Source: Beroe forskalii (taxonomy: Eukaryota > Ctenophora > Nuda > Beroida > Beroidae). Taken from it: 64,000 nucleotides of DNA. The stretch covers positions 124,001 through 188,000 of the forward strand of contig WFMF01000122.1 in assembly GCA_011033025.1 (NCBI GenBank), given 5' to 3'. The translations under genes were made by a program, and so were the position numbers. How positions within the stretch are numbered: the first letter of the stretch is position 1; each line of letters opens with the position of its first letter. Of the stretch, positions 1 to 52,253 are shown piece by piece. The notes under the pieces are model-generated. The model did not search any database, was not told where the DNA came from, and saw only the letters and a list, made by a program, of their open reading frames with translations.

Positions 1-165
1 TCTTAGCGTTGTTTATTGGAGGAGTAGTCACTTGAGGCTTCGTGGTCAGTGGGGACAGCTGAAACAATGGGTGGATTAGCATTTTAAGTTTGTGATAAGG
101 TAAGGATAACTATGTTTTGAGAGCATGAACTGATGCATAGGTTTCAACTGAACTCAACAATGATC
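1..165. other. Downstream flank, no gene seen
   Basis: Short AT-rich flank beyond the stop of the first minus-strand gene. It is probably that gene's 3' UTR, but I see no decisive polyadenylation signal. Confidence 0.3.
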
Positions 166-6048: not shown

Positions 6049-7182
6049 TCTCTTGCGAGATCCTATGCGGTGTTACCTTGCGGACATGATGCACCAGGAT
6101 CCTCCTCAAATTTGTTTGATATAAAGTAGTGTTTGTTAAAGTTGATGGTGGTGGTTCAGCAATTCTCCCTGACAATTCGTACGTGTGCTCGCAGAAAATT
6201 AGAAATATATTCCGAATTTGGTATAACTACTGCATTTTTAAGACACCCGAAATTAATATTTTAAATGGTGTGTGACTGCACTTAATGTAATATTTCATTC
6301 TAGAAGAGGGATGCATGTTTCATGATGTCTAGGGGGTAAAATTAATCTAAATTCATCAGAAATTTAAAGCAGTAGAACTGCAGCAATTTCATTGTACCAC
6401 GCATCATGAAATAGTAATTTTTGATGAAACATATTTCATCAGAAATTACTATTGACTTTAACAAACACTGATTTATATCAGATCAAATGTTTTATCAAAA
6501 ATAACAAAATTATGAAATTGCTATTAACGGAATTCAAATATGCTAGAATGTTTAAATTTTTGGGTGGTACAATCAAATGTCAGCAGATCTAATTTAGTGT
6601 GAATCAATAAGCTTTGCATGAATTATATTCGGTGAAAAGTGAAGTAAATATTTGCTCAAATAACGACGGCGTATTAACAAACCAGAAAGATCCTGAAATC
6701 ACCATACACCGATCAATTTGTGCCTGAGTTTAATGTCAACTCAGGCGCTGATTGGTCAATGTCAAATGGAACTGTTGATAAGCTAATATGCTGTCGATTT
6801 TAATGTGATCAATCTATTCAAGTCAAACCGCCTTCTTTGTCGAGCGGTCTAAACTAAAATTCACTGAAAGATGCCTAAACGAACATTGAAATCAATTCAA
6901 TGTTCTTTGAAATCTTTTAAATAGTAGAATTGTACACCAGACCATGAAAAGCACGAACGTTCAGAAGAAACAACTTTCAGAAAATAAACGCAACCTTTCA
7001 GAAAATTAGACTTGTAGCCTGTTAACAATTAAAGAGAACAATAGCCCTATACTCTGGCTGTTTCGAGAAGAAATTGGCACACCAAATACCATAATAATAT
7101 ATTGACAAGCGGCAAATTCTTGTCAACAACCCAATCAATATTAAAATGTTATTACATAGGTCGCACGGCAAATACTCCAGGC
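6049..7182. other. Intergenic, AT-rich, no gene seen
   Basis: Upstream region of the convertase gene. It contains several short repeated phrases around ATTTCATCAGAAATT (6350-6460) but no coding signal. Confidence 0.35.
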
Positions 7183-7225
7183 TTTATCCATCAACTTGCC
7201 ACGTTAAATCCTGATAATGACGTCA
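7183..7225 (-). repeat. Paired-CRE element, copy 1
   Basis: A perfect TGACGTCA at 7218-7225 is followed on the minus strand by the element's 27-nt core, beginning TTATCAGGATTTAA. The second site is degenerate. Confidence 0.75.
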
Positions 7226-7280
7226 CATCCATTCGCCGGGTATTTGAGGGCGAGCTGTCCAAGGTGACTTGGTGGTCGCT

Positions 7281-7365
7281 TCCACAGCCAATATATATAA
7301 GTTATCACGTGACTTGATTGGTCACGTGACCCGAACCATTCACGTGAATCAACCAATAACGTTGC
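7281..7365. promoter_or_regulatory. Promoter-like module: TATA, CACGTG x3, CCAAT
   Basis: A TATATATAAG stretch is followed by TCACGTGA (two CACGTGAC contexts and CACGTGAA) and CCAAT/ATTGG pentamers. The same mix of TATA, paired CACGTGAC and ATTGG lies just upstream of the actin gene in this window. No ORF of note follows on either strand, so any transcript would be noncoding or very short. The motifs are seen; promoter activity is inferred. Confidence 0.45.
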
Positions 7366-7543
7366 GGGATAGTCGCGTGATAGCATTAATGACTAATGTG
7401 TCTAGAAGTCCAGCCAGTGACGCAAAAGCATAATATGTTAACATCTAATACATGTCTAAACTATCATACCATTTACAAAGCGAGAATATAAATAGAAAGT
7501 GCCTAAGTAGGGCGTGTACAAAGGGAACAGCGAGAAATTTTAA

Positions 7544-7804
7544 ATGCACCAAATCGAAATCAATTTTAAGAGAAATACCTTCCTCTATGCAAGAGATTGG
7601 GGAGAGCAAATGACGTTAAAGTACAAAGAACACCACAGAAAAGAATTCAGGATCTCAAATACCGAGAAAAGCATTCCAAAGGAGGAGCAAAATATCTACA
7701 AACGATCGATTAGAAGTCGCGAGAAGCGCATTTTGACATTTTGGTGCAACAAAGGCGTGTCGGAAAAGACAATTGATCTTTTGAGAGGGTTGCCGCGATC
7801 TTAG
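7544..7804 (+). other. Isolated 86-codon ORF, doubtful
   Basis: An ATG-initiated Lys/Arg-rich ORF in otherwise noncoding sequence about 200 nt downstream of the promoter-like module. It has no recognisable motif, signal peptide or membrane segment, and no homologue elsewhere in the window. Probably chance, but it is the only ORF of any length in this stretch. Confidence 0.15.
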
Positions 7805-8002
7805 CTAATGAAGAGCTGCTTTGACATCTGACATTTCCCATGACTCCTCTAATCGGGATATACCAAAAGCAGAATATCAGAGCTCTGGTTACCGCTGGGT
7901 AACAAGACGCTCCCTAATTCATGGTGATTAGAGTGCTGACGATTTAAATAGAGGGTCAGGATCTTGTGAGCTGGAGCTGGTCATATTTCACGCGGCGTAT
8001 CT

Positions 8003-8080
8003 GAGAAATATACGAATGCCCCCATACTCACCAATAGATTGTGAGAAATATACGGATGCCTTCATACCCCGAATAGAATG
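8003..8080. repeat. Two-copy direct repeat, about 38 bp
   Basis: The phrase GAGAAATATACGAATGCC recurs about 39 bp later as GAGAAATATACGGATGCC, with related flanks in both copies. Small local tandem duplication. Confidence 0.6.
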
Positions 8081-8304
8081 AGCGGGCAGCTTGAATAGCA
8101 AACAAAGTACAAGCGCAATGGCTGGTTCTATAATAGAAAATGGCAAATAAACGGTCCACGCGAGGCTGAGGTATTGTAAAAAGCGGGTGTGTACACATCA
8201 ATGGAGGGTGTGAGAAGGAGCCAATGATAGGGAAAGGACGATCCAGCAATCTACCGAGGCATATCTTAGTCTGTATTCGACATTCGAACAATTGGTGGTG
8301 AGAT

Positions 8305-8347
8305 TAACGTCACTATGACAGTTCATAATAGTGAATTCATGACGTCA
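8305..8347 (+). repeat. Paired-CRE element, divergent copy 2
   Basis: TAACGTCA, a 27-nt core and a perfect TGACGTCA (8340-8347). The core has diverged but the spacing is kept. The downstream phrase (CACACCGCCTTTTCATCATG) resembles that after the copy at 13320. Confidence 0.6.
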
Positions 8348-8525
8348 CACCGCCTTTTCATCATGCGAAGCACATCAAAATACACGGTATATGCTAATCA
8401 ATAGAAACCAATGAAAAGCCATGGAGAGACGCAGTAGGTATAGAAAATCTCTACCAATTATCAAATAATACGAGGTCAGGGTTGGGGTATATACAGGCTG
8501 TGTAGGAGCAATAGGTGACTGAGAG

Positions 8526-8568
8526 TGACGTCATTATCAAGGCTTAGAATGGTGAACTGATGACGTTT
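8526..8568 (+). repeat. Paired-CRE element, copy 3
   Basis: Perfect TGACGTCA at 8526-8533, core with CTTAGAATGGTGAACTGA, then TGACGTTT. Preceded by GAGAG, as in several other copies. Confidence 0.8.
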
Positions 8569-8599
8569 AAAGTGCCTACTCTCCTTGAACAACGCTCCG

Positions 8600-9446
8600 T
8601 GTACTGAGTGGCTTTGTACGATATAGACAGGTCATTGGCAGGTCCATCAAAACCCGGGTATATAGTAAATATACAGCGAGGTATGGGAATCAAGGGAGCT
8701 CTCAGGCAGGAGTCATGGTGGTATGAAGCTTCAGATCTCGAGTCTGTTTATTGTGCGTGGGTTTTGTATACGGGGGAGATCGAGTGTATTGGTCATATAT
8801 AAACGGGAAGCTAGCTCAACAGAAAATAGAGGAAGTTGGCAATGTTAAAAAACAAGGGGAAGTAAAACGAATGGTCGAAACACCCGGAAGAAATGTAAGG
8901 AGAAGCCTGGTATAGCCTGGCTACGCTAAGAAACAAAGAGATAACAGGAAGTATTGAGCTTCGGTTTGATAAGAGAGATATCAAGATATATCAGGTTCTA
9001 TGGAAGTCGAATAAACCACGGATATCAAGGCAAATACGTTACTGATGCTTCACGAAGATGTGGTGAAGTTTTTGGGAAACTTATCGGTAGCTGAAGTGCT
9101 TGAAGAGCACTGAACAAAACCGTACAATCAAGATTCTGCGGAGAGAATATATTATGAAGGAGCAGCTAGAACACAATCAGCTGTGTCCTGGGGTCTCACT
9201 ATTCCTATTCATCACAATCACGAGACTGAGAAAATGTAGGCTGACCATTCGGCGCAAATAAATAAGTAAATACATGAACGTCTTTATAATATCAAACGCT
9301 ATGATAATACTACCAGGGACGCAGGTAATAAGAATATTAAACAGCGAGGCTCTGTAAATATAAATATTAACTATACCCAATATATTGATATACGAGATGT
9401 GCAGCCCGGGGCTATATATTAGAGAAACCATACAAAGCACTTGGCT
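8600..9446. other. No gene seen
   Basis: Mixed-composition noncoding stretch. Its short ORFs have no recognisable motif. Confidence 0.3.
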
Positions 9447-9510
9447 AACCAATGAACGGGCAGTACCGGCTAGGGAGTAGCCAATGAGAAGCCAGGAAAC
9501 GGATCACGTG
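9447..9510. promoter_or_regulatory. CCAAT x2 plus CACGTGAC cluster
   Basis: Two CCAATGA pentamer contexts about 30 bp apart are followed by GATCACGTGACC. The arrangement resembles the modules at 7281-7365 and 15740-15835. No coding start follows nearby. Regulatory function is inferred from motif density only. Confidence 0.35.
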
Positions 9511-9772
9511 ACCTCTCAAAGTGGTGTGTACAGAGCTCACACACAGAGCCCGGTTTATTAGAGAATGTACTACACACGTTTTATTGATGATAATATACTG
9601 CGAGTTATATGAGACTTAGTTTACACTCACACACACTCACTCACACACTGAGGCCGTGACCCATTGTGGAGATGTTCCGTGAGGAAATGTACACGAAAAG
9701 ATGAGGAGAGAGGGGCATTATTCAAAGAAACACTCAATACAAACGTATATAATCAAAATATTAATTAGAAGA
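9511..9772. other. Flank with short CA-rich microsatellite
   Basis: Contains CACACTCACACACACTCACTC around 9620-9650 and otherwise simple AT-rich sequence. It probably includes the 3' UTR of the CIA30-domain gene. Confidence 0.4.
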
Positions 9773-10496
9773 TCATTTCTTCACAATTACAACATTGAGC
9801 AATTCATTGAATGAAAATGAGCTAGTTAATAAACATTTCAAAAACAAGTTAACAGTATTAACCTCCAAGGACCCCACGCCTTTTTGCTTAAAATCGTCAT
9901 AAACACCACCAAAAGTCTGAAATCCAAATCTTACAGATTTTACTGAAATCCAGCGCAGGTGCATCTGGAACCTCCTTACCCCAGTGGTATGCTTTAAACC
10001 CATCAAATGGCAACTCCACATCCTCAAACTCTGCCAGCCCTGACAACTTAAACTTCTGCTCGTACGTGTAATTCTGTGCTGGTCCGGAATTTTGGTTGTC
10101 TGTAAGTACAATTTTCCAAAAGCTAAGCTGCCCCTGACCTCTCAGATTTAACCTTATTCCTTGAGCTTCCTTACATTCAGCAGAAATTGCAGGCAAGTTA
10201 GTCTGTACCCCTGCAAAACCAGCTCCGTTTGGCTGCGGGTTAATAACCGCAAAGATTACAGCTCGTTGGAATAGCTGACTACGTTGGAGGGTAATGACAG
10301 CTTTTGACATGCCCGGTGTTCGGACAGTGTCACTGACTTCAGTCCAGGAGTCAATGTCTTGAGTGGTGGTGAAGTCAAATAGCGTGGGGTGTGAACATGT
10401 TGCAAGGGTCATGGTAGTGCGGGCTATTAGGGTGCTGGAGGCTGCACGGAGGAGAGCGGGGTGTAAGACTAATACAGCACACGGCAGAACAAACAT
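9773..10496 (-). CDS. CIA30-domain (NDUFAF1-like) protein, one frameshift
   Basis: Single exon. From ATG 10496 an N-terminal stretch with no acidic residues and several Arg (about 35 residues) could be a mitochondrial presequence or a signal peptide. The CIA30 fold follows: LFDFTTTQDIDSW, FAVINPQPNGAGFAGVQTN, GIRLNLRGQG, YEQKF and FDGFKAYHWGKEV. The family's closing strand (GFQTFGGVYDDFKQ, then GVGSLEV) appears only after a one-base shift at the T3 run written AAA on the plus strand at 9925-9927. Reading on ends at TGA 9773, for about 240 residues. NDUFAF1 is an assembly factor of respiratory complex I, but CIA30 domains also occur in other proteins, so the role is not certain. The shift resembles those in the convertase gene and is probably a consensus error. 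Confidence 0.82.
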
Positions 10497-11031
10497 TAGA
10501 GCTAATGGTGTATAAATATAAAAGTTAGATGAAAGGCTGTTCTTAGTTCTATTAACTTGATGATGTCATAACATATATTGCTGAAAAATGCCATTAAAAT
10601 ATTCCAAAAGAAACTTGTGTCGCAACACTTACTTCTTTTATTTAGTTAACTAGTTACTACACAACCGTTTTATCAGTTTGAGCGAGTTTTTAAGTAAATG
10701 TACACACCACAAAATGAGACAGAAAATGAGACACATGACATGGGGAGATAACAATGCCTTCATTTGGAGGAGACCGAGAAAACACCCAAACTATACTATC
10801 ATACGAGACATTCCACAATTCCAAGAAACTGCGTACATAATCAAGGTATTCTAGGAATTCTGTCTACATATAACACGGTGTGACTATATAACAAAGGTTA
10901 CTATGGGTACAGCAAACCGAGTATAATAAAATACACCATCTTGATATATTATGTGAACGACATCATCCCTTGCCAGCCACCTGTCACACACATGACACAT
11001 CAACCGTCATACTCATGATCATGATACGAGG
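10497..11031. other. Intergenic, no gene seen
   Basis: Upstream flank of the CIA30-domain gene. AT-rich with TATA-like stretches and no ORF of note. Confidence 0.35.
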
Positions 11032-11065
11032 TGACGTCATTATCATGGTCAGACTGATGACATCA
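11032..11065 (+). repeat. Paired-CRE element, shortened copy 4
   Basis: TGACGTCA, then TTATCATGG..., then TGACATCA. This is the only copy whose core is 18 nt instead of 27, consistent with a 9-nt deletion. Confidence 0.65.
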
Positions 11066-11119
11066 TCTCTCTGTCTTGGATACGATATGTTGCCTTGTCA
11101 CGATATATTCGTAGACTAA

Positions 11120-11210
11120 TCACTAACGTACAGTCAGATCAGGAGGTAGATCTAACAAGGCAGAGACTAACGTACAATCAATCAGATCTCAAGGTAGAGA
11201 TAGGAATAGA
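11120..11210. repeat. Two-copy direct repeat, about 45 bp
   Basis: ACTAACGTACAGTCAGATCA recurs about 47 bp on as ACTAACGTACAATCAATCAG. Each copy continues into a similar AGGTAGA phrase. Confidence 0.6.
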
Positions 11211-11410
11211 GTTTGAAACTGCCGCGTGTATCAACTGTAATTTCATGACAAAGCACAAACAAAACAGTAGCTTAAATTAACGCCAGTACGATCCAAATGA
11301 TAGTACGTAAACTATGCGAAGTTTCATCATACTCATGGAATTCAACACATCAGGAATTAATCACTAAATAAAATAAGATTGGATTTAGCATTACCCATTA
11401 GAATTCAAAA

Positions 11411-11941
11411 CTTAGACCCGTTCTAGACAGGGAATTTTGAGGAGCTATTGCTCGAGCAATTGCTCGAGCAAGCCTGTCTAGAATGGGGTTTTTCGCTTGC
11501 CCGAGCTATTGCTCGAGCAATAGCTCGGGTAATAGTTGGAGGTATTACCCGAGCAATTGCTCGAGCAATTGCTCGAGCAATTGCTCGGGCAATCATTCCT
11601 GTCTAGAAAGCACTCTTACCCGGGCAATAGCTCTCACTGATACACGTGACCCTGTCACGTGGGTCGAATCATGACACAACGTGAAATAGGAAGCTGATTC
11701 ATAGCTGATGGCAGTGACGCTATACCTGTTTTGTTATTGTAACATTATACCTTCCTTATGCACGTGATATTAGAGATGCGCTGACAGGAGCTATAGCTCG
11801 AGCAACCCTGTCTAGAAAGATTTTCGAATCCAATGATTGCTCGGGTAAGCGTGAAGGGTCATCCTGTCTAGAAAGTAACGCTTGCCCGAACAATTGTTCG
11901 AGCAATAGCTCCTTGAAGCTCCTGTCTAGAACAGGTCTAAG
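11411..11941. mobile_element. 531-bp TIR element with palindrome array
   Basis: Both ends read CTTAGACC(C/T)GTTCTAGACAGG inward, a terminal inverted repeat of about 20 bp. Similarity resumes further in at AGGAGCTATTGCTCGA. The interior is an array of the palindrome TTGCTCGAGCAA and variants, often back to back, broken up by the phrase CCTGTCTAGAA, which occurs at least five times. No ORF of coding character, so it would be non-autonomous. I could not define a target-site duplication. The family is unknown to me. Confidence 0.7.
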
Positions 11942-13125
11942 AAGCTATTGAACTAATAATAAGGGCCCTAATAAGTAACAGAATTGGTTATGAAGCCGAC
12001 ACCCAAAACACGTATGAATCATGGTATGGAATTTCGTAGACAAAGGGGCCATAAGAGTTTATTTGCACAGGGTCATGAAAGTTGAAATAATAGCCGATGA
12101 TGAAATACCTGATCAAATCAACATATCAAGTAAAGATGAGAAGACCTATGATGATGCAATCTATCCCCAGCGGGGGTAGGGGATGGTCTAATTGGTTAAA
12201 TTTGGGCTTCTGAAATATCACTTAGACAGCAATTAGAGGGTTGCTCGAGACCTAATTAGTTGATTGAGGAGGTATACAATTGTAAAGGTACCGAACACAG
12301 AGAATGTATAGTGTGGAATGTGGGGGGAAGAAACCAGCCCTTGAGGCAAACCAAAACTACGAAACCACATAGAACTACGCAGTTATAGAGGGATGCAATT
12401 TCATTCCCTACAAAGTGCCCGGTAGTAAACCAGAATAATCGGATACTTTTCCAATTTCCCAGAGCTTCCAACTAAACTGGTAAAATGGTAGTTACACAGA
12501 CTGCAATTTGCCTAAGTTAAATGCTGTTGTCTGGGAGGAATTTAAATTTCAAATTAGCAAATTGTCGCATGCTCGAAGACGCTCCATCACATTATATAAA
12601 ACGGTGAAAGGTATTTAATGATATTTCCTTGAAATGTAACGGTTGAGCTGCACTTCAAAACGGACACAATCACGAGATGTTAAAATGCTGGCAACTGTCC
12701 AGCAGCAGCAGAATGTGACAGTGAGAATTCAGGATTGCCAGTATAGAGTGTGTAGAGTGAACCGCAACACTGCCTTAGGTGGAATATGCAAGGAGGTACA
12801 CTGCATTTCAAAGGAGTGTGTGAAGGGACAAAGTTGAGTCAAATGTATAATCGGTTGACTAAAATACTGTAAATTCTCTTCAAGATTCCAGAATAAACTG
12901 CTCAAAAATATCATGAAAATGTGAGCGAAGAATTAAAATGTGCAGTAAGTTGCTTCATTGCTGCTGCTTTGCTCGCTCTTTCAGTAACTGGGAAAATAAT
13001 CATTGTCCAATTTTAAAACAGCCCTTAAAATAACCAAGGCAATTCAAGCGTTGGGAAATTGGCAGGGATAAAAGGGAGGGAGTGTCGGTTGATGAAACCG
13101 TAAGAAGTTACCAGACTAGGTGGTT
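11942..13125. other. Noncoding stretch, no gene seen
   Basis: No conserved ORF. Composition is ordinary for the window; no long repeat recognised. Confidence 0.35.
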
Positions 13126-13168
13126 TATCGTCATCAGTTCACCATTCTAGACCCTGATGGTGATGTCA
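13126..13168 (-). repeat. Paired-CRE element, copy 5
   Basis: On the minus strand TGACATCA (13161-13168), a 27-nt core containing TAGAATGGTGAACTGA, then TGACGATA. Confidence 0.75.
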
Positions 13169-13319
13169 CTAACAGTCCCATGACAAACCAAAGGAGGAGG
13201 AGTGAAATCAATCATATAATGGCAAAATAACGATAAATTATACATCAAAAAGCAGAGTGGCGCTCATGAAATTACGTTGCAGCAACAGCTATTATTTATG
13301 GTAAAATGGTAGCTGAGAG

Positions 13320-13362
13320 TGACATCATTATCAGAGCTTATAACGGTGCCTTGTTGATGTCA
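13320..13362 (+). repeat. Paired-CRE element, copy 6
   Basis: TGACATCA, a 27-nt core beginning TTATCAGAGCTTA, then TGATGTCA. Preceded by CTGAGAG. Confidence 0.7.
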
Positions 13363-13580
13363 CAAAGCCTGCTTTCATACGCAGCACACTTCTGAGAGAA
13401 CTGATAATATAATTACTAAACATTGTCAGCATGGAAAGTGGAAACGAATCAGTGTACACACAAAACGGTCCGATTTGACTGTGATCCGTCCGGCATTGAC
13501 GGACATTTAAAGCGTACGTACACATCAAACGATTGTAGAGAAGTTGGGTGTGGTCAGGTACAAATCACATTATAGATCAT

Positions 13581-13680
13581 GTCACGTGATAAGTACAAAT
13601 GTAGGTCACGTGATAAGTACAAATGTAGGTCACGTGACATGTGTATAAGTCATGTGACATGTGTACAGGTCATGTGACAC
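13581..13680. repeat. Tandem GTCACGTGA (E-box) repeat
   Basis: Five head-to-tail units. The first two are 24 bp (GTCACGTGATAAGTACAAAT plus GTAG); the later ones are about 20 bp and drift to GTCATGTGACATGTGTA. Each has one CACGTG or CATGTG. This could be a cluster of bHLH-type binding sites or a plain minisatellite. Confidence 0.7.
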
Positions 13681-13808
13681 ATCCTGCCAAATGTCACACA
13701 CCTTATCTTGTCATGTAATATACACCTTGTTTGACCACCAACGAAACGCAAGCTGTGTGAGTACAAACTGAGGGGGTCACGATCAGAAATTGGAAATATT
13801 GGACATCA

Positions 13809-13851
13809 TCAAGTCATCAATTTGCTACTTTAAAGTATGATAATGACATCA
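13809..13851 (-). repeat. Paired-CRE element, copy 7
   Basis: Minus strand: TGATGTCA, a 27-nt core starting TTATCATACTTTAA and ending AATTGA, then TGACTTGA. Confidence 0.7.
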
Positions 13852-14698
13852 TTATCAACCGCCTATCATTTAATCTCGTTGGTACACGACCTACCTTGCG
13901 AATGATATCATACACCAAGCCATAAAAATGCCGAGATGTATATTATTATGTCAGATTAGGTCTAGATTATGACATCATGCGAATCACAGATGATTACATC
14001 ACACAGAAATAATAATAAATTACGCTGGCCACGAAGACAATAACACAAAGAATAATGATAATAATAATAAACATGACCTCAGCCCGCCTAAACGTTCAAT
14101 TAAAGCTAGGCAATGTTAGAGAATTGTACACAAGAGTTGAGCTATAATACTGAGAAATGGAAAAGAGAGTGGGGGAGCTAATGAGATAATTGGATAATTG
14201 ATGAGCTAATTAATGTACCAGGAAAATACATGTGGGAATGGTGACCTGATGTCAAACAGGAAATTTAGAGCGCTGAAGAATGTACATATTTCCGCATGAC
14301 GTTTTAAACTTAAGTTATTTTATACACAGGTTATTTGACTAAGCATCTTCTATAGTGTCCTCGTAGGCGCGGGCTAATTACGCCAAAATCTTTTCAAATG
14401 ATTTTGAAAACCAAGGATAGAATTGGCCATCCTGCAAAACTCGCAAAGCCTCCTACCTTCAAAATGTAAAGCAAATTTCAACATAAAAACAACGGCGTTT
14501 AATTTCGTCTAAATAAAGATAACAATACTAAAACGACATTTTATAACAAACTCATGACCAAAACTATGCGAAGAACTTACAACGGTGCAACTCAACTTCA
14601 CTCACGCGCAATAAAATTATCAAAGATTCATGACAAGGAATATGCGCTGCCATCTAATCCAAGATAATGGAGAGAGGCGTAAACTAGGCGGTCGAGAG
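13852..14698. other. Noncoding stretch, no gene seen
   Basis: No ORF of coding character. Includes an AATAATAATAA run near 14040-14070. Confidence 0.35.
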
Positions 14699-14741
14699 TG
14701 ACGTCATTATCAGGATTTAAAGTGGCTAATTGAGGATGCGT
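14699..14741 (+). repeat. Paired-CRE element, copy 8
   Basis: Perfect TGACGTCA, a 27-nt core (TTATCAGGATTTAA...AATTGA), second site lost. Preceded by CGAGAG. Confidence 0.7.
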
Positions 14742-14975
14742 TTTCGCCATTTTGTGACCACGTAGTGCCAGCCACATTACATGGATCGTTGACAGGAAAC
14801 GTTTAGTCACTAAGCGAGTATTTAATTTGACACGCTTAATATAATATCGTCTTACACGAAGCTGCCGGCAACAGATCCGAGTTCTCTGAAAACGTTAATA
14901 TATACTTGACGTTAGTCAATATAACATTCTCATGAGTAGCAGTCCGGTTACATTCAGAACACTGGCATCTGCCGG

Positions 14976-15018
14976 TGACGTCATTATCAGGGTTTAGAGT
15001 GGGCAATTGATGACGTAT
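14976..15018 (+). repeat. Paired-CRE element, copy 9
   Basis: Perfect TGACGTCA, core TTATCAGGGTTTAGAGTGGG...AATTGA, then TGACGTAT. One of the best copies. Confidence 0.8.
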
Positions 15019-15739
15019 CAACTATAGAACGGCCCATGGCGAGGGCAGTGACTGTGTCAATGTTTCATGAGGCGATATCAAATAGCAGTTCCGGTCGGTG
15101 AAGTTTATATGATATCTTGATCTGAGATAGACCATTTAGAGCCTACAATGTGGATACAAGGCCAGCCAGGTGCTCATTTGTTGCTGGAATTTTATTCGCA
15201 ATTAAGGTTTTCTTGGAAAATGTACCATAACATTCACGAAAGCGAAGCTGTAGCACAACTATTTACATTTCAAAGCTATTAACTATAGAAAACAAAAAAA
15301 GGAGAAATTTATATGAAATTTGAGAAACCTTTCCATGAAAGAGGGTATAAAGCTATTGAGCTATTGTAGGTTATATATTCGACTATTGTACAACATTTGA
15401 ATGACCTTTGTCATACCTTCATCCAACCAGCATGAAACAGGTATTGTAAAGTTTTCCCACGTTATTACTGCCAAACTAAACTGCTGGAGTATGAGTATTA
15501 TTGCTAAACCTGTTCACAACAATTGTGATGTTATCCCATTGTTCAACAATAAACAATAGTTTATTCCAATACAATGCGTAAAAACGCTGCAAAAAGAAAA
15601 AAAGAAGAAAATTAATAAAAAGAAAGAAGCTGCAACGCTCCCAGCTGGTATAAATAGGTTGTATAATTTACAGAAAGAGAGGGCAACAACAGAGACGCGA
15701 CGAATCAAACGTAATGAGAATATATAGGACACCTTTAAT
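15019..15739. other. Noncoding stretch, no gene seen
   Basis: No conserved ORF or long repeat recognised. Confidence 0.3.
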
Positions 15740-15835
15740 TTTCATCCAATCAGAACGAATTACACTATACAAATATCCTAGCAACATCCAATGAGGGCTG
15801 AGTACGGATGTCACGTGAGCGGGGAGCTAGCCAAT
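15740..15835. promoter_or_regulatory. CCAAT x3 plus TCACGTGA cluster
   Basis: Three CCAAT pentamers (in TCCAATCAG, TCCAATGAG and GCCAATGGG contexts) surround GTCACGTGAG. It resembles the modules at 7281-7365, at 9447-9510 and upstream of actin. A paired-CRE copy lies about 170 bp downstream. No coding start follows. Confidence 0.35.
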
Positions 15836-16002
15836 GGGAGGGAGGCTTGTAATACGATATGGTGACCGGTGAGACCAGATATTCATGTAATGATAAGGTA
15901 ATCCAATATGAGGTGATTGCAAAGGTCGCGTGTTCTAGAAAACCCATTTTCACTGCCTCATGGATTTACAGGGGCCTGTGAGAGTACTTTAGGTGATGAG
16001 AG

Positions 16003-16045
16003 TGACGCCAAACCAAGGGGTCTAATTGGTCAATTGATGACGTCA
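16003..16045 (+). repeat. Paired-CRE element, copy 10
   Basis: TGACGCCA, a divergent 27-nt core ending CAATTGA, then perfect TGACGTCA. The spacing is preserved although half of the core has changed. Confidence 0.65.
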
Positions 16046-16185
16046 TGATTCCTAATCTCTTAGCACCCCCATCAAACGTGGCAGTGAACCTGAAGTCCAT
16101 TTCCTACTCCCAGACACCCGAGTACCATGTGTGTGTGTGATAATGAAAGAGGAAACAGGGGGTTTTAAGAGGAATATTTTATGCG

Positions 16186-16280
16186 TTGTCAGTACTCGAG
16201 TTTGTGCGTTTGTCAGTACGAGTTTGTGCGTTTGTACGTTTGAAAGTCAGTACGAGTTTGTGCGCTTGTACGTTTTAAAT
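16186..16280. repeat. Short tandem repeat, GTCAGTACGAGTTTGTGCG
   Basis: Three head-to-tail copies of GTCAGTACGAGTTTGTGCG followed by a TTTGTACGTTT phrase, with irregular spacing of about 25-35 bp. Confidence 0.65.
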
Positions 16281-16545
16281 GCCCAACACACATATGGAGT
16301 AAATTATAGGCAACACATGAAACACAGGTGGTGTCGGTAGTGTTTACAAAGGAGCAGCAACAGCTGTACGACATATAATAACAAGGCGGTAAGAAAGGAA
16401 TGACAAAACAAGAAATATTCAAAGCAGCTGGTATGTCATTTAAAGTTCTAAGGAGGTCATACTACTTATTTTTAAAACTATAGGTTCTAGACTATACTTT
16501 GACAACTTCAAATAGTGACGTGACTTCTTTATTATTGTAGCCATG

Positions 16546-16548
<3 letters not shown>

Positions 16549-16574
<26 letters not shown>
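16549..16574. repeat. (AC)n microsatellite
   Basis: Thirteen AC dinucleotides without interruption. Confidence 0.95.
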
Positions 16575-16576
<2 letters not shown>

Positions 16577-16865
16577 GAGTCATTAGGTGTAAACAAGTGC
16601 TAGAGTCTGTGTTTGTTTAGCCAAACACCTGTACTACTGCTAACAATAATAATACTAAGCTGATGGTATGGTAGACTGAGAGAAAGGGAGAGAGGGTGAG
16701 GATTGTTAAGAGTCTGTATTTATTAGGGATCTTATAAACTGTCTGGAACTGTTAAATTTGTCTGAATTGATTTTCAAATTGATTTTTATCTGTACAGGAA
16801 TCTTAATTCTGCAGACTCTGGAAAACATTAAAAACATTTCTAGTATTTCAGATTTGATCAGTATT

Positions 16866-16965
16866 NNNNNNNNNNNNNNNNNNNNNNNNNNNNNNNNNNN
16901 NNNNNNNNNNNNNNNNNNNNNNNNNNNNNNNNNNNNNNNNNNNNNNNNNNNNNNNNNNNNNNNNN
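16866..16965. other. Assembly gap, exactly 100 N
   Basis: A run of precisely 100 N, the conventional placeholder for a scaffold join of unknown length. The order and distance of what lies on either side are therefore not proven by sequence. Confidence 0.97.
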
Positions 16966-17057
16966 CAGATAAAGTACAAAGACGATGATAACGTTATAAA
17001 AGTTATTCGGGAATGCTCCCCCAGCGAACACGTCGTTGCAGGTATGAATTGTCGTGA

Positions 17058-17100
17058 TGACGTCATCAACTCACTATTCTAAACCATGATAATGACGTCA
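17058..17100 (-). repeat. Paired-CRE element, copy 11, both sites perfect
   Basis: TGACGTCA at 17058-17065 and again at 17093-17100, separated by exactly 27 nt. This is the only copy with two perfect palindromic sites and is the type example. Confidence 0.85.
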
Positions 17101-17440
17101 TTGTTAGTCTCCACCGCTTTGAATCTGGCCTGTTACCTGTAAATAAGCTATCATCACCGCATAATGTGGTTTTCTCTGAAAAATAAACTCTGAAAATTCT
17201 GCTGTTTTACAGGATTTAGCATCCCCTCAGACATCGCCCAATACTTGTCTAGATGCTAAAAATCGAAACTATTTGCTGGACTCTTTATAACATTGTGCTA
17301 TGTACGTACTGTATAAACATTATATACTCCGGGGTTCAGGTTTATTTTACAGAGTATAATATTTTATCTGAAAACTTCATCCTTGTCGACAGCTCCTTGC
17401 TTGAAATACAGGGCGTCCACTAAAATTAAGCGGTTGAGAG

Positions 17441-17483
17441 TGATGTCATTATCAGGGTTTAGAATGGTGAACTGATGACAAAA
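17441..17483 (+). repeat. Paired-CRE element, copy 12
   Basis: TGATGTCA, core TTATCAGGGTTTAGAATGG...AACTGA, then TGACAAAA. The core is close to the consensus. Followed by AACCGCCCG, similar to the ACCGCC phrase after other copies. Confidence 0.78.
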
Positions 17484-18118
17484 AACCGCCCGTTTTTTCG
17501 TTTATACAAAGCTCTTATCTGTCACTTGCGTCTGTATTTCTATACTTTTTCTTTTGAGCTCACGTATAATGAAGATTTGAGTTAAATACAGGTCATCATG
17601 CAAACTAAACTCATGGTTTGACCGAATTAATAATAATGCAGTGTTTTGTGCCAAAAATAGTTTTACAAGTGTCATGGCAGATGCCAATCATCACTGTACC
17701 CTTTATAATCTTATCTGATGAGATTTTCTCATGGAACATATCATCTTCTGTTCTTTTGAGGCGTCAATATTACTTCAAAACAATGATTATGATATAATTG
17801 ATAAAACTGTCACAAATCTTATTTGATCTACGAGTTTTAACTTTAAGGTGTTGACTTTTAATCTGGGTTTGCGTTGATATTAACACAATTTGTAAAATCC
17901 AATATTTGACAATAGCTGTTCAGACTGATAGGTTTTCTGACCTGATGAATGTGACTGATACCTATTGCTGATCACTGACACTCTAAATCATTTCAGGTGA
18001 CATTTGTAACCAGGCAGTCCAGCTCCGTGGCAAGCCATGTGACGCATGGCTGTGTGACACGCCAATGTGTAATGGTGCCACTTCAGTATTCCGGGGTGCC
18101 AGCTCAATATTCCGGGGT
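17484..18118. other. Noncoding flank before the left arm
   Basis: No gene seen. Ends with a triplicated phrase TATTCCGGGGTGCCA (18070-18120) that abuts the outer boundary of the left arm. Confidence 0.4.
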
Positions 18119-18732
18119 GCCACCTCAGTGACCGGTGCCACTTTCTCCTTATTATCCCAAATATACCAAACTCAGACATTCCTAATCATTCTCATTCCCC
18201 TATACCTGTTGCTGTACCGTGGCTGATATAACGAAATATAAAATGGCCCCTCCCCTTGGCTCTCCCCATCTCTACAACTTCTGGATTCTCAATTCCATTT
18301 GAGGAATATAATAATTGCTGAATAAATTGATGAAGATGTATGCATACATATATATATTTGGATGATCTGAGTTTTGACAAAAGATGATAGTGATTATTTT
18401 GATAACAATATTTGCCGAGCAAAGTGTACAGCTGTATGTATTGACTACTTTGCTTGACGCAAGAAGTGGATCTATTTGTGAATTTGAATAACCTGGTGTT
18501 ATGCGAAGAAAAAGCGAGGATAGTGGCAAAAAGATGAAAGCTTATCTGATTTTGTCACTTTCAACAAGGAACCAGTCAAAGAAACGAACACCAAGGAAAA
18601 GATGAATTAAGCTGTAGGAAAAGTTGAATGAAGAAAAGTCTTTGTTTTTAGGAAAGACCCTTCTACGAAACACCTTCAAGGCCAAGTCATGGAAAATCTC
18701 CAAAGATTCTAAAAGATAGGCTTGAGTATTAT

Positions 18733-18934
18733 TACCTTAGGAGGTTTATTTATAATGGTTGTAATTTGGGGATTTTTCAGAAAAATCCCCATTTTTTCAC
18801 CCACCATGAAATTTCGAAATGGCGTCATTATCATATGTTAACAAGAGAAATGACTTGAAAAATCCCCATATTTTCAACCTACCAAAATTTGAAACGCCGA
18901 AATTTTATCCCAAATAAATACACCTCCTAAGGTA
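18733..18934. mobile_element. 202-bp MITE, absent from the right arm
   Basis: Terminal inverted repeats TACCTTAGGAGGT(T/G)TATTTAT face inward. An internal inverted repeat uses the phrase GGGGATTTTT. The corresponding place in the right arm reads through without it, so this is a real insertion. The flanking bases allow a short TA- or TAT-type target duplication. No coding capacity. Confidence 0.8.
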
Positions 18935-19564
18935 TATTGGGGAAAAGTCAAATGAATACTTTGCATTTAAGTAGTTCATCTTGCATAATTGGTTTGACAT
19001 TCAGTTTAATAGGGCATCATAAATATTGCCATTTTACTTTGGGATATATTTTTGTTTCAGTATCGAAGAACTAGTTAAATATCCTGTTGAATTTGAAAAA
19101 TGGGCCTTTTCACCGAAAGCAAATGGTCATAGGTGTCTTTCGTTTTATTTGAATATTCAAAATAATATTGTATACATTTTTACTATATTTTTAAAAACGA
19201 ATTAAAAACAGGTCCGTTTATTCTTGAATTCAAATTCACTTCCACTGAGTTTTAAACTTATAACTGGGACCAGTAGATTAAATACAGCAATATAAAATAA
19301 AATAAAAGTTTCGCAACTATAACGCAATATTTCTGTCTCCTACTTTCTATGTCTTCTGTCTTCTTGATTCAAATATGGGTCACCATAGTCCATCTTCAAC
19401 CGTCAGTCCGTCAAATGCAATTGTCTGATTCACGTCCTGTTGGGTTCTTATTCGACTGATGGTCATTTTCATTATCCAACAAACATTGAAATACACTGTG
19501 AAGAGTAACTTTCCGGCCAAGAAATCATCAATTTTCTGAAAATCTCTTTTATTCCGTTCCCATT

Positions 19565-20110
19565 TCAACATGAATTACCAACTATGTCACTGATGATCCT
19601 TTCGGCAGCAGAACACACAACCATCACAAAAGACACACTCCAAAACATCACCCAGAGCACCTTATCAACCAGTCCATTCCACATGCTGTCACAATCACCC
19701 GTGTATCTTCCATTGTCCAGAATCCTTCTAGTTCTAGAATCGCCAATGCCTCTTTGTCTTCCATCTTCTAGTCGACCATCCATGGCTGCACTATCTCCTC
19801 TATTATTTCCAGTTCCATCTCCATGGACCCTCCTATCACCTAACACCGCCCTTCTAACCCAAACCATCATCTCCCCATTATCCAGCAAAGTCTCCCTCAC
19901 CTCCCTCCACGCAGCCTCCATCAGCTCATACCGGGATGGGATTGCATGGTAACTCCCCCCAAATAACACCCCTCTAGCTCCATACAGAATGCAGTAGATG
20001 TTGTGGTACATGGTAACGAAGAGGCGTAGTGTGTCACGAAGTTGGGGCTCTGAAGCTGGGAGTTCTGAGAAATCATGAGCTGGGAGTTCTGATGTGTCTG
20101 GTGCTGGCAT
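19565..20110 (-). CDS. Unrecognised 181-residue protein with hydrophobic C-terminus, left copy
   Basis: Single-exon ORF from ATG 20110. I recognise no family. The first 90 residues are well ordered (SEPQLRDTLRLFVTMYHNIY, GARGVLFGGSYHAIPSRYEL, EAAWREVRETLLDNG). A variable Asp/Gly/Arg-rich linker follows, then a near-invariant C-terminus (LVDKVLWVM, WSVSFVMVVCSAAERIISDI) with a hydrophobic stretch of about 18 residues suited to tail anchoring. The right-arm homologue (52254-52814) is also fully open. The two are almost identical in the N- and C-terminal blocks and differ by several indels in the linker, all multiples of three. That pattern argues for a real protein under selection. Function unknown. 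Confidence 0.72.
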   Translation of the reverse strand: MPAPDTSELPAHDFSELPASEPQLRDTLRLFVTMYHNIYCILYGARGVLFGGSYHAIPSRYELMEAAWREVRETLLDNGEMMVWVRRAVLGDRRVHGDGTGNNRGDSAAMDGRLEDGRQRGIGDSRTRRILDNGRYTGDCDSMWNGLVDKVLWVMFWSVSFVMVVCSAAERIISDIVGNSC

Positions 20111-21239
20111 TGGTCCAAGTATCCTTTATGAGTTTGGGATTTCTATTCCGATTTCTGTAATTTTTTCTTGCTGTGGTTTATCAAATCAGCCGAAGGGTTC
20201 TGTTCTCATAAGCATCTTGGTAATCTTCATTTTGAAAAGTTCATTATTCTTCGCCATCACCTTCAGAAATTAGATTTTACTAAAAAAGTCAACTCAAACC
20301 GTAAAATCATGATATAATGCCATGAGATCATTAAGATAAATTACTATGAATAATGATTAATGACCGGACGAATTTTCACCAACTGGAACTTAGAAAATGC
20401 TTTAACATCAACACCGCAACTTATATCTCAACCTCTTTAGTACGTGGGGTCAAACGAAACCAAATATAAGTTATAAGAGGGCATTATGAGTTTTTGTTGA
20501 AACAATGGCTAGCAGGGTCATATGAACCTCCACATGCAAGAACGGGCCAAGTTACTTGGCCCACTTTTTCAATTTGTTGCTAGACGTGATCAGGACGTCT
20601 AGACGCACCTACAGGTGAAATTTTGAAAGAATCTAGAGACTTTTTTGAAAATTTTCAAATTTTTCAAAATGCAAGAACGGGCTATGAAACATGGACTATC
20701 ATGATATTTTGAAATCTGTAATGCAAGAACGGGCTAAATAACTTAGATCATGAAATTTAAAATAAGGGGAATTTACCCCCAAAAATCTTAGTTTCGGGCC
20801 AACCATCTTAATCCCCCAATGAAACATTTCATTTTCTTTGGAAAAGTTAAAGGCCCATTTTTCGGTTAATTACAATTTGCCTGTTTCATATTCTAAAAAC
20901 CCCATTATTCAAAAAAAGGGGGTTCAAATTCCTTATTGGTTTAAAATATATTTTCCAGTAAAATTTTAATTTTAACACAAAAGGGTCTGTATCAAAAAAT
21001 TTAAAAAGGATTTATAAACGTCCATAATAGCCTAGACTTTAGTTTCGGGAACCCAGCAATTCAGTAACATAAGCCCAAAAAATTTTAAAACTTAAAAAAC
21101 CAGTCTCAAAAGCCTAGACCTTTTCCCAAAAAAGCTCTTGATTGTTCCCCAGTTCTTGGATCGTTTCCAAGTGTAAATTTTATTTCCTAGCCTTAAAAAC
21201 TTTCCCAATGGTTCGTTTCAAAGCCCAAATTTAACCTCC

Positions 21240-26640: not shown

Positions 26641-26736
26641 GAGCGTTGCAAGTTATCAGAAGCGCTTTGAAGAGCTTGGAACTTCCAAGCTCTTCAAAGT
26701 GCTCCTGATAACTTGCAAGCGCTCCTTGCATCAATG
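26640..26736. repeat. Palindrome inside the array, copy 2
   Basis: Same palindrome as at 24889-24984, carried by the 1.75-kb higher-order duplication. It sits at the downstream end of the array. Confidence 0.75.
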
Positions 26737-27376: not shown

Positions 27377-29619
27377 GATGGCTGGATTTGGAGAGAAGCC
27401 AACTACCCTCTTTGAAACGCTTTCCGATGCTCATTGTTCTTGTTATAGCGAACACAAATTGAAATGCTATGGGGCAAATACTAAAATATTCAAACACTGA
27501 AATGGATAAATTTTTCCAGAAATCAGACAAACGATGAATAGAAAGGTAAACAACTTAAATCTTCATCGTGAGATACTTTCGTATAACTGACGTCATCAGT
27601 GCTCAAATACTTCAACTTGCAATTCATGAACTATGAATCGCATAGCACATGTGGTTTTCCATCTTATTCCCAAAAAGTATAACCTAATGAGCTAATGTAT
27701 CCTCTCAGGCGCCAGCTAAATATTCCTAAACTTTCGGTTCCATTTCATGTTTCATACCACAATTGAATGTCAGATTCCCTGGTCAAAGTATCAACTATAT
27801 TTACTGACCATGACATCAGCTGCTGCTGACCTCTCAGACTCTATCCCCCAGATGTCACATAGTGATAACCACTAGATGTTCCATACGAACAATATATAGA
27901 GCCCTTTGGCAGTTTGCCATCATCAACTCACCGTTCTAAACCATGAAAATGACGTCACAGGGGCCCGCCAATGGTTGTGGGCCTCCAAATAAACCAGGTG
28001 TGTTTGTGTGACTGTGGGTCACGGCAGCAAAATGCCTATGCTAATTCTTTTTTAATATGCGTGACTCCTGTCAAATGGTGGACGATATATATATTTGGTG
28101 TGTTAAAACTTCATAATGTGTTATATAGTCCGGAAATCCATATACCCCAAGATATGCATTGCGTCATATTGGAGCAGGGTGTTATATATTGCTGGAATCA
28201 CCATCGGAACCATATCCACCAGTAATGGTGAGTTGTGTCATGTTTTCTCCTCTCTAGGTTTGACTTACTCTTCTTACTTTCACTTTTTATTTTCCTTTCA
28301 AAAAGTTCAGGCCACAGAGGCCTCAGGATCAATCAGAATGATAGAGGTTAAGAGTGAATAGTGATGTCTTTAGGTGTCAACTTTGGAGTCAATGACCACC
28401 TACTTTTTGCTATGAGTTTGCGGCATATAAAGTACTTATCGCACCGTTTTAAATTTGATAATGTCAGAAATATCCGGGATAATAATTTATAAGTCATTAA
28501 AATGTGAGCATATAATATGCATTTGATAGCCATCAATATGTTACAGTGATACAAGAATTATAACCGTGGGGTTGTCATTAAATTATTTGTATTGGCCACA
28601 TAACATGTGGTGTGTGAGGAGGAGCTTTCCTTTGACTTGTCTGTCTGTCTGTGTTATGTCACTCTCAGAGACTGTCTGTGATGTCAGTTTCAGAGATGAT
28701 TTGTGATGTCAGAAACTGTGAGTGATGTCAGATTCAGAGGGATGGTGAGTGATGTCAGAGACTGCTTTTGATGTAAGAGATGGTTTTAGGGATTTCATAA
28801 TTTCCTAAAAGCTTCTAAACCTGTTTTCTTTGGGGGTTTCTTTCCGAATTGTAGATTGAAATTCATGCTCCTTTCGATTTCCTCATATCAGAACAATAAT
28901 TAGAATTAATTCGCACTCTCATCCAAAACTCTCCAGGCCTCCAAATCTGTATCAAATTTGAAATATGTCGGTGTTTACTACTGTTACGATGCCGAACTCT
29001 ATTATTGATTGTGATTTAAGTTACCGATCAGTTACTTTATTAAAGCGAATAATTATCAATCATTTCCTTGTTGATCATTTGACGACCGACAAAGTCTCGT
29101 CACAATGGTCTCAGTTTCTTTTATTATGGCCACTTTGTAACTTGAATTTGTGTAACTTAAGTATGGCGTTAGTTCTTCGCTCAATATGCTTACCGTAGCC
29201 ATAGTAACGTTATTTAGTTTTATTGTTCATGATAATTGTGATTGTAATAAAATTTAGGACCCTCTTTATGGACAATTTATCATCTGGGTTCCTATAAATG
29301 TAGGTGTCTAAATTCTCGAAATGATAATCGTTAGGTAAATCGCATGATAATTTATGGAGTTATCAGCAGTGCCATGAACCATATCCAGGAACCGCTTATT
29401 TCATTCCGTTTATTTTATTTCCATTTTCAATCGTTTGAATGATGCAGTACGTGCTTACGTGCCTTTTCTGCCTTTTTCTCGGTTTGAAATATTCATTTGC
29501 TTTTGGCTTTCTTTTGATCGTCGTCAGGATCTTCTATTAATTTCGTCAGAACTCAACTTAAAGTGAAAGCTATAACATACAATAATACATATCCCAATAT
29601 CAGTCCCAGGTTCCATAAA
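27377..29619. other. Left-arm spacer upstream of the GPCR gene
   Basis: No gene seen. Includes one paired-CRE copy and, at 28655-28785, four repeats of GTGATGTCAG (half-CRE) within CAGAGA-type sequence that are also present in the right arm (about 50440-50540). Confidence 0.5.
27915..27957 (-). repeat. Paired-CRE element, copy 13 (left arm)
   Basis: Minus strand TGACGTCA, a 27-nt core with GGTTTAGAACGGTGAGTTGA, then TGATGGCA. Counterpart of the right-arm copy at 51234. Confidence 0.8.
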
Positions 29620-31957: not shown

Positions 31958-31969
31958 AGTTAGGGTAAT

Positions 31970-32150
31970 GTTGACACTGGTGTCAACTGTCAAGAAACCA
32001 GATAAAACTGGTGTCAAGGGACCATTCATCACTGTTCACTGGTGTCAAGGAACCAGATGATACTGGTGTCAAGGAACCAGATGACACTGGTGTCATGGAT
32101 CAGCTGACACTGGTGTCAAGGGACAATTGTTGACACTGGTTTCAGCAAAT
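31970..32150. repeat. TGACACTGGTGTCA palindrome array (left arm)
   Basis: Six or seven copies of the 14-bp palindrome TGACACTGGTGTCA, or its half, separated by AAGGAACCAGATGA-type spacers with a period near 27 bp. It starts about 13 bp after the GPCR stop and so may lie in its 3' UTR, where each unit could form a small stem. The same array follows the right-arm GPCR gene. Confidence 0.75.
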
Positions 32151-49610: not shown

Positions 49611-52253
49611 GAAACCTGGAACTGATTTTGGGATATGTAAGTTATAGCTTTCACTTTGAGATAAGTTCTGACGAAATTAATTGTAGATCCTGACGTCAAT
49701 CAAAAGAAAGCCAAAAGGAGCAAATGAAAAAAGGAGAAAAGGCACGTACTGCCTCATTCAAACGATTTAAAATGGAAATAAAATAAACGGAATGAAATAA
49801 GCGGTTCCTGGATATGGTTCATGGTATTGCTGATAATTCCATAAATTATCATGCGATTTACACAACGATTATCATTTTGAGATTTAGGGCACCTACATTA
49901 GGAACCCAGATGATAAATTGGCCATAAAGAGGGTCCCAAACTTTATTACAATCATAATCATCATGAACAATAGAACTAAATAACGTTACTAAGGCAACGG
50001 TAAGCATATTGAGCGAAGAACTAACGCCATACTTAAGTTACACAAATTCAAGTTACTAAGTGGCCATCATTATAAAAGAAACTGAGACCATTGTGACGAG
50101 ACTTTGTCGGTCGTCAAATGATCAACAAGGAAACGATTGATAATTATTCGCTTTAATAAAGTAACTGATCGGTAACTTAAATCACAATCAATAATAGAGT
50201 TCGGCATCGTAACAGTAGTAAACACCGACATATTTCAAATTTCATACAGATTTGGAGGCCTGGAGATTTTTGGATGAGGGTGCGAATTAATTTCTAATTA
50301 TTGTTCTGATAGGAGGAAATCGAAAGAAGCATGAATTTCTCGAAATTCAATCTACAATTCGGAAAGAAACCCCAAAGAAACCCCAAAGAAAACGGGTTAA
50401 GAAGCTTTAGGAAATTAGGAAATCCCTAAAACCATCTCTTACATCACAAGCAGTCTCTGACATCACTCACCATCCCTGAAATCACGAATCATCTCTGAAA
50501 CTGACATCACAGACAGTCTCAGAGAGTGACATCACACAGACAGACAGACAAGTCAAAGGAAAGCTCCTAACACACCACATGTTATGTGACCAATACAAAA
50601 TATATTTAATGACAACCCCCCGGTTAAGACTTGTATCACTTTAACATAACATATTGATGTCTATCAAATACATATTATACGCTCATATTTTAATGACTTA
50701 TAAATTATTATCCCGAATATTTCTGACATTATTAAATTTAAAACGGTGCGATAAGTACTTTATATGCCGCAAACTCATAGCAAAAAGTAGGTGGTCATTG
50801 ACTCCCATAAATTGACACCCAAAGACATCACTATTCACTTTTGAACTCTTTCATTATGATTGATATTGAGGCCTGGACTTTTTGAAAGTAAAATAAAAAG
50901 TGAAAATAAGAAGAGTAAGTCAAACCTAGAGAGGAGAAAACATGACACAACTCACATTAACTGGAGGATATGGTTCCGATGGTGATTCCAGCTCAATATA
51001 TAACACCCTGCTCCAATATGACGCAATGCATATCTTGGGGTACATGGATTTCCGGACTATATAACACATTATAAAGTTTTAACACACCAAATATATATAT
51101 CATTATCGTCCACCATTTGACAGGAGTCACGCATATTAAAAAAGAATTAGCATAGGTATTTTGCTGCCGTGACCCACAGTCACACAAACACACCTGGTTT
51201 ATTTGGAGGCCCACAACCATAGGCAGTCCCTTGTGACGTCATTGTCATGGGTTAGAATGGTGAATTGATGATGGCATATTGCCAACTTAGGGCTCTATAT
51301 ATTGTTATTGTGCTGAGTGTGGAACATCTAGTGGTTATCACTATCTGACATCTGGGGGATAGAGTCTGAGAGGTCAGCAGCAGCTGATGTCATGGTCAGT
51401 AAATATAACATAGTTGATACTTCGACCAGGAAATCTGATATTCAAACTTACACCAATTGTGGAATGAAACATGAAATGGAACCGAAAGTTTAGGAATAAT
51501 TTGCTGGCGCCTGAGAGGATTCATTAGCCCATTAAGTTATACTTTTTGGGAATAAGATGGGAATGTGCTATGCGATTCATAGTTCATAAATTGCAAGTTG
51601 AAGTATTTGAGTACTGATGATGTCAGTAATATGAAAGTATCTCACGATGAAGATTTAACTTGTTGACCTTTCCATTCATCGTTTGTTTGATTTCTGGAAA
51701 AATTTACTCATTTCAGTATTTACCCCAGAGCATTTCCAATTTGTGTTCGCTATAACAAGAACAATGAGCATCGGAAAGCGTTTCAAAGAGGGTAGTTGGC
51801 TTCTCTCCAAATCCAGCCATCATATGATCCTGCTAGCCATTGTTTCAACAAAAACTCATGATGCCCTCTTATAACTTATATTTGGTTCCATTTGACCCCA
51901 CGTACTAAAGAGGTTGAGATATAATTTCCGATGTTGATGTTAAAGTTAGTTTCAGTTGGTGAGATATTCGATTTGTTCTGTCATTATTCATAGTAATTTA
52001 TGTGATTCATACTGATTTAATAATCAATAACAACAGAAAATTGTTGGCATTTTACCTGTTATGATTTTAAGTTTCGAGTTGGTAAAATCTTATTTTTGAA
52101 GGTTATGGCTAAGAATAATAAACTTGTCAAAATGAAGATAACCAAGATGCTTATGAGAACAGAACCCTTCGGCTGATTAGATAATCCACAGGAAACATCG
52201 CATTCGCAGAATTCGAAACAGAAATCACTAACTCCTAAAGGACACTTGGACCA
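49611..52253. other. Right-arm spacer upstream of the GPCR gene
   Basis: Counterpart of the left spacer 27377-29619 plus the flank of the unrecognised gene. Holds one paired-CRE copy and the empty site of the 6.85-kb element near 51815-51835. No gene seen. Confidence 0.45.
51234..51276 (+). repeat. Paired-CRE element, copy 14 (right arm)
   Basis: Perfect TGACGTCA, a 27-nt core ending TAGAATGGTGAATTGA, then TGATGGCA. Duplicate of copy 13. Confidence 0.8.

Follow-up and report, generated by a model that had tools for sequence, protein, structure and literature searches.

Miniature inverted-repeat transposable elements (MITEs) are given a length range of 50-800 nt (PMC4726161), and clustered insertions have been reported in carrot for the Stowaway-like DcSto elements (PMC3695323). 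Here we describe a repeated element found in a 64,000-nt stretch of the genome of the ctenophore Beroe forskalii (contig WFMF01000122.1, positions 124,001 to 188,000; this whole stretch is called the window, and coordinates are counted from its first base). Like MITEs such as DcSto, it is a short non-coding imperfect inverted repeat whose copies fall into more than one sequence type, lie in both orientations and occur in a cluster (PMC3695323); unlike them, it has no detectable target-site duplication (TSD) and its inner arms are better kept than its ends. It falls at the lower end of the 50-800 nt range (PMC4726161), and no partner transposase was recognised in the window. With the cAMP response element (CRE) or ATF/CREB palindromes, for which promoter position and spacing biases are described (PMC1796609, PMC3464117), it shares TGACGTCA, a CpG-containing bZIP-type site. 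In contrast to isolated promoter CREs, this site is embedded in a repeated 65-bp unit of common descent, and the second site of the unit is mostly degenerate. Repetitive extragenic palindromic (REP) sequences are likewise very short palindromic interspersed repeats (PMC3733652), but these are prokaryotic and 20-40 bp long, whereas the window carries animal-type genes (actin, proprotein convertase). The reading that we favour, at roughly even chances, is that the copies are an old family of ~65-bp non-coding imperfect inverted repeats which spread by MITE-like insertion into a 10-kb stretch.

All 14 positions at which the initial annotation had placed related 43-mers do hold them, in both orientations, and twelve lie in 7.2-17.5 kb (Table 1; copies are named by the position of their 43-mer). 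The remaining pair, 27915 and 51234, is present in both arms of a large inverted duplication as described, but represents a single copy that was duplicated, which leaves 13 independent copies rather than 14. A profile seeded with 12 copies (8305 and 11032 were outside the seed) found the 14 copies in the window at 18.2-64.4 bits, including the two unseeded ones. The next match scored 10.3 bits and the best score in 20 dinucleotide-shuffled windows was 11.8 bits; no additional copies without TGACGTCA were found by this search of the window. In leave-one-out scoring, from which 11032 was left out, 13/13 copies were refound at 15.2-54.2 bits, 16003 being the weakest. Clustering was evaluated by simulation, and none of 200,000 placements, presupposed to be uniform, brought 12 of 13 sites within 10.3 kb.

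The conserved unit is longer than the 43 bp first assigned to it. Counted from the 43-mer, clearly conserved columns extend from about -14 to about +50, and beyond these limits conservation tapers off, giving a unit of about 65 bp that consists, in order, of TAGGCGGTTGAGAG, TGACGTCATTATCA, an 18-nt spacer (GGGTTTAGAATGGTGAAY-like), TGATGACG, a poor TCA-like tail and a weak (A)ACCGCC. Its consensus is an imperfect inverted repeat, with outer ends TAGGCGGTT and weak AACCGCC, and with inner arms TGACGTCATTATCA and the mirrored TTGATGACG (TGATGAC). The outer ends mirror one another in the best copies (17441, 8305 and, on the right side, 13126), and across 12 copies the right outer end matched the mirrored left end with a mean best match of 5.4 vs 4.2 of 9 (0/20,000 resamplings). 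The suggestion that the palindromic ends are very short terminal inverted repeats (TIRs, ~10 nt or more) is therefore favoured by the inverted-repeat anatomy, in which TAGGCGGTT and AACCGCC are mirrored and the right end is above chance, and disfavoured by the outer helix, which is paired in only 50% of cells.

Rates of change along the unit were compared as tree steps per column over 12 copies. From left to right, these were 4.6 at -19..-15, 3.7 in the outer left end, 3.2 in GAGAG, 0.75 in the left CRE-like site (CRE1), 1.7 in TTATCA, 2.2 in the spacer, 1.1 in TGATGAC, 3.75 in columns 39-42 and 5.1 in the outer right end (43-52), with 6.1-6.2 in the far flanks. The best-kept parts are thus the two inner arms, neither the ends nor two whole CREs.

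The flanks of the copies do not align with one another above controls. Local alignments of the flanks of 13 copies, which reached ~150 bp to the left and position +190 to the right, gave an observed mean under the control mean in 6/6 comparisons, with controls that could overlap and included tandem arrays. Under stricter controls, non-overlapping and with tandem arrays excluded, there was no excess in 4/4 comparisons (scores as high occurred in 59, 191, 197 and 191 of 200 control sets). Since the flanks are unaligned above controls, the element is not, within the window, a fragment of a larger repeat, and the alternative raised in the initial annotation, that the copies lie within a larger alignable transposon, was not borne out there. 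The left boundary is slightly blurred, because column conservation in the left flank (-60..-15) averaged 0.252 vs 0.199 in rotated controls (P 0.019); the right flank showed no column-conservation excess over rotated controls (P 0.61). An ACAGG-like motif ~30 nt upstream in some copies was considered and discarded: three columns exceeded the 99% level with 11 copies, and one of 46 left-flank columns did so with 12 (P 0.28 vs rotated controls).

Identity between copies was unrelated to the distance separating them (rho 0.13, P 0.36; 55 pairs among the 11 cluster copies other than 11032), which is evidence against stepwise tandem duplication. With orientations mixed as well, we rejected a tandem array or stepwise local duplication. 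Copies 7183, 13809 and 14699 group on the tree with a support of 0.949; at least one subfamily is therefore present and some of the variation is older than insertion. The common descent of the copies, their unaligned flanks and their occurrence in both orientations together indicate that new sites received the unit as a whole. Copying of this kind occurs most commonly by transposition in trans. We infer that a trans-acting enzyme would have transposed the copies, and that a dimeric DNA-binding protein, either a transposase or a host bZIP protein of the ATF/CREB type, may preserve the inner arms at their fixed distance by contacting both.

Set beside the features by which MITEs are recognised, the unit has a suitable length and is non-coding (about 65 bp, with no coding-type variation in the tabulated columns), and it is present in multiple copies in unrelated flanks, apart from the slight left-flank column signal. 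Several observations count against MITE-like insertion. The ends are the least conserved and fastest-changing part of the unit, when a recognised transposon end should show the opposite, and the mirrored left end used in the end comparison has T at -7, a column that holds C in 5 and T in 4 of 11. Pfam matches were sought for all 22 window open reading frames (ORFs) of at least 120 aa, and none was to a transposase. Twelve copies in 10 kb with one elsewhere are unusual for a dispersed element, and the left-flank excess belongs here too. Nor was a TSD found at the outer or inner boundaries (-22..-6 with 44..61; -6..3 with 37..47; lengths 2-10): the best mean identity in the outer scan was 0.50, against a maximum of 0.58-0.67 across 30 permuted sets, and the largest excess in the inner scan was 0.155, measured against the between-copy control alone. 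TA stands at the left edge in 5/12 copies. Age could have erased the TSDs. Because no TSDs were found and the ends change fastest, we do not claim MITE membership.

To gauge constraint on the unit, mismatches were counted against the majority consensus of the 12 copies. These amounted to 6/96 in CRE1, 63/324 in the core and 24/96 in the right-hand site (CRE2), with a P of 0.002 for the CRE1 deficit in a within-copy permutation. On the tree, the inner arms took 21/61 steps with 13 copies (P 0.003) and 11/42 steps with the 11 copies left after removal of 8305 and 16003 (P 0.0005); CRE1 alone gave P 0.02 and 0.054, respectively, in the tree column test. These tests used 11-13 copies that were possibly noticed for their TGACGTCA, making ascertainment possible, and the trees were built on the element's own columns, which lowers step counts inside the element relative to the flanks. 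The C and G of CRE1 are each retained in 10/12 copies. Within the duplicated arms, 17.9% of 446 CpG positions (CG in either arm) have changed vs 6.6% elsewhere, a 2.7x faster rate.

The inverted duplication of this window alone also provided the yardstick for indels (563 substitutions and 73 indels in 7777 columns). By this measure, 7.9 (from tree steps) to 9.2 (from mismatches) indels would be expected between the two sites and 1 was observed (P 0.003 and 0.001, respectively); it sits in 11032, outside the copies used for the substitution counts, and compensating indels within one copy would escape the count. Both the inner arms, which evolve at a lower rate than spacer and ends, and the distance between them, with fewer indels than expected, look constrained, and the fixed spacing proposed in the initial annotation stands as a constraint, with one indel seen where about 8-9 are expected. 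The constraint could reflect selection acting on the copies where they lie, or selection that acted on their source copies while these were mobile. The duplicated copy has changed as fast as its surroundings, being identical at 39/43 bases vs 2174/2324 in the arm.

The TGACGTCA sites themselves bear out the earlier description in part. Where about 15 perfect sites had been reported against about one expected, we counted 16 in the window, 11 in copies and 5 outside, and base composition predicts ~0.85 (hand calculation); all 9 perfect sites in 7.2-17.1 kb lie within copies. Sites were scored on 12 copies, a set without 11032 in which 27915 and 51234 count as one. The site is intact on the left in 6/12 copies, on the right in 3/12 and on both sides in 1/12 (17058), so that "paired CRE" overstates the case, the more so as columns 39-42, which hold the final four bases of the right site, rank with the fastest-changing in the 43-mer. 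The 27-nt register is kept in 13/14 copies as claimed, but three copies have no convincing second site there: only 3/8 bases match TGACGTCA in 7183 and in 14699, while in 17441 the match is 5/8 with a better one 3 nt off, and 13809 is a tie. The idea of phasing found no support, the site centres being 35 bp or about 3.3 helical turns apart, and the two sites would therefore not be on the same face of the DNA. At 47143-47172, two perfect TGACGTCA lie 22 bp apart and flank a third TGACGT; this arrangement resembles the inner arms with a shorter spacer, and it has profile scores of only 7.6-9.1 bits and inconsistent orientation.

The main rival to MITE-like insertion, possible in our view though clearly less probable, is a spacing-locked homotypic cis-regulatory array of bipartite bZIP (ATF/CREB-type) dimer-pair sites, generated by short-range copying and with selection acting on arms and spacing. 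Consistent with this, CRE1 is the slowest block, tree-aware step counts are low in both arms, the C and G of CRE1 are mostly kept although CpG changes faster in the duplicated arms, spacing indels are far under expectation, and several intact TGACGTCA stand close together. The element-masked 10.7 kb around the cluster is also rich in the TCACGTGA palindrome (an E-box), with 8 occurrences vs 2 in the other 53.3 kb. A regulatory array is harder to reconcile with the sites as they are: both CREs are intact in a single scored copy, half of the copies have no perfect left CRE and the outer half of the right site is not conserved. The duplicated copy, moreover, kept pace with its surroundings, and CRE1 alone reached only borderline values on the tree. 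It is doubtful that the locus is a self-amplifying array specific to this place, in which bipartite spacing-locked ATF/CREB-type sites would have been copied over short range within their own 10 kb without TSDs and kept by selection beside TCACGTGA E-boxes. The TCACGTGA sites are found at 7305-7347, 9504, 13582-13637 and 15811; of the eight, a 24-bp tandem array contains three and a stretch of ~43 bp three.

Remnants of a larger transposon, either ends or subterminal repeats whose interior was lost or has diverged, are an unlikely source of the copies. Inverted arms, with copies in both orientations, do resemble subterminal transposase sites, and the weak left-flank column excess fits as well, but the flanks have no excess alignable similarity, also under the stricter controls nearer in, and steps per column climb on both sides of the unit towards the far-flank level. 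When the window was compared with itself (E 1e-10, matches from 60 bp upwards), no larger repeat was found to join the copies besides the inverted arms. Very improbable is a family of RNA hairpin genes (small RNA precursors) repeated in the cluster. A stem-loop can be drawn from the consensus, and 8305 folds well (z -3.84), with 17441 at z -2.14, but z was below -2 in only these 2/14 copies with DNA folding parameters and above it in 12/14; cross-copy pairing was 68.6% vs 67.7% with shuffled partners (167/500 shuffles as high), with no compensatory changes. Rfam gave no match at gathering thresholds. We rejected this reading, and likewise a tRNA reading, none being found by ARAGORN. Least probable of all, and also rejected, are exons or peptide-coding repeats: a frame of approximately VTSLSGFRMVN-stop is open in many copies (by eye from the alignment, uncounted), but the consensus is open regardless, 16003 and 8305 are broken (by eye), and third-codon positions are not freer, as columns 7 and 13 are invariant across the 11 tabulated copies, contrary to what coding constraint would produce.

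Table 1. Copies of the ~65-bp element in the window.
Feature	Position	Strand	Details
Element copy	7174..7239	-	43-mer 7183-7225; profile 45.0 bits, leave-one-out 27.0
Element copy, diverged	8291..8356	+	43-mer 8305; 28.3 bits unseeded; DNA fold z -3.84, best hairpin-former of 14 folded
Element copy	8512..8577	+	43-mer 8526; profile 60.9 bits, leave-one-out 51.9
Element copy, central deletion of ~9 nt	11018..11070	+	18.2 bits unseeded; gapped alignment
Element copy	13117..13182	-	43-mer 13126; profile 54.7 bits, leave-one-out 39.7
Element copy	13306..13371	+	43-mer 13320; profile 52.9 bits, leave-one-out 28.6
Element copy, intact TAGGCGGTT end	13800..13865	-	43-mer 13809; profile 48.5 bits, leave-one-out 36.5
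Element copy, groups with 7183 and 13809 (support 0.949)	14685..14750	+	43-mer 14699; profile 56.3 bits, leave-one-out 42.0
Element copy	14962..15027	+	43-mer 14976; profile 57.5 bits, leave-one-out 43.3
Element copy, core diverged	15989..16054	+	43-mer 16003; profile 46.0 bits, leave-one-out 15.2, E 0.0006
Element copy, two perfect TGACGTCA (only one of 12 scored)	17049..17114	-	43-mer 17058; profile 59.2 bits, leave-one-out 48.7
Element copy, highest-scoring, both outer ends visible	17427..17492	+	43-mer 17441; profile 64.4 bits, leave-one-out 54.2
Element copy, left arm of inverted duplication	27906..27971	-	profile 59.4 bits; aligned arm
Element copy, right arm (same copy as 27906..27971)	51220..51285	+	profile 59.9 bits; 39/43 bases identical to other arm

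Elsewhere in the window, Pfam matched ORFs to actin, a proprotein convertase with a P domain, a CIA30 protein and cytidine deaminase, and the other ORFs of at least 120 aa had no Pfam match. The inverted duplication joins 18118-33797 and 43627-54049 through several collinear arm blocks; six of these were measured and have an ungapped identity of 90-97%. Near 43.6 kb there seems, by eye, to be a second occurrence of the start of the cytidine-deaminase frame at 33645, in a frame without Pfam match. Further repeats include a TTGCTCGAGCAA 12-mer array with five CCTGTCTAGAA-like copies at 11431-11940, possibly another palindromic element, a ~4.5 kb degenerate tandem array of a 20-bp unit (AGGAGCGCTTGGAAGCAATC) with higher-order repeats at 22151-26672, and a 168-bp satellite-like tandem array at 39477-41550, whose copies are about 94% alike.

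No counterpart of the element was recognised in the viral and prokaryotic contigs and the literature searched. Five element patterns gave 0 matches each in viral contigs, and one pattern gave 0 matches in prokaryotic contigs; neither collection is one of animal genomes, so these negatives carry little weight and have no bearing on genome-wide copy number. A 19-base pattern found 3 prokaryotic matches vs ~2 by chance (hand calculation); beyond the seed these agreed at 10, 9 and 5 of 29 bases, and we attribute them to chance. Four motif strings had no occurrence in the literature searched, and among the matches listed for related topics none was recognised as this element by title or abstract start. 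A paper on Amphimedon promoters (PMC4773876) has 0 mentions of palindrom-, CREB, repeat, transposable or TGACG.

If mobility is the right reading, the unit would count as a very small DNA element of animals, close in size to the lower MITE limit and equipped with a strong ATF/CREB-like palindrome, and it would provide a direct route to the seeding of transcription-factor site clusters. If it is a regulatory array, the locus would show spacing-locked homotypic clusters growing by the copying of whole 65-bp units.

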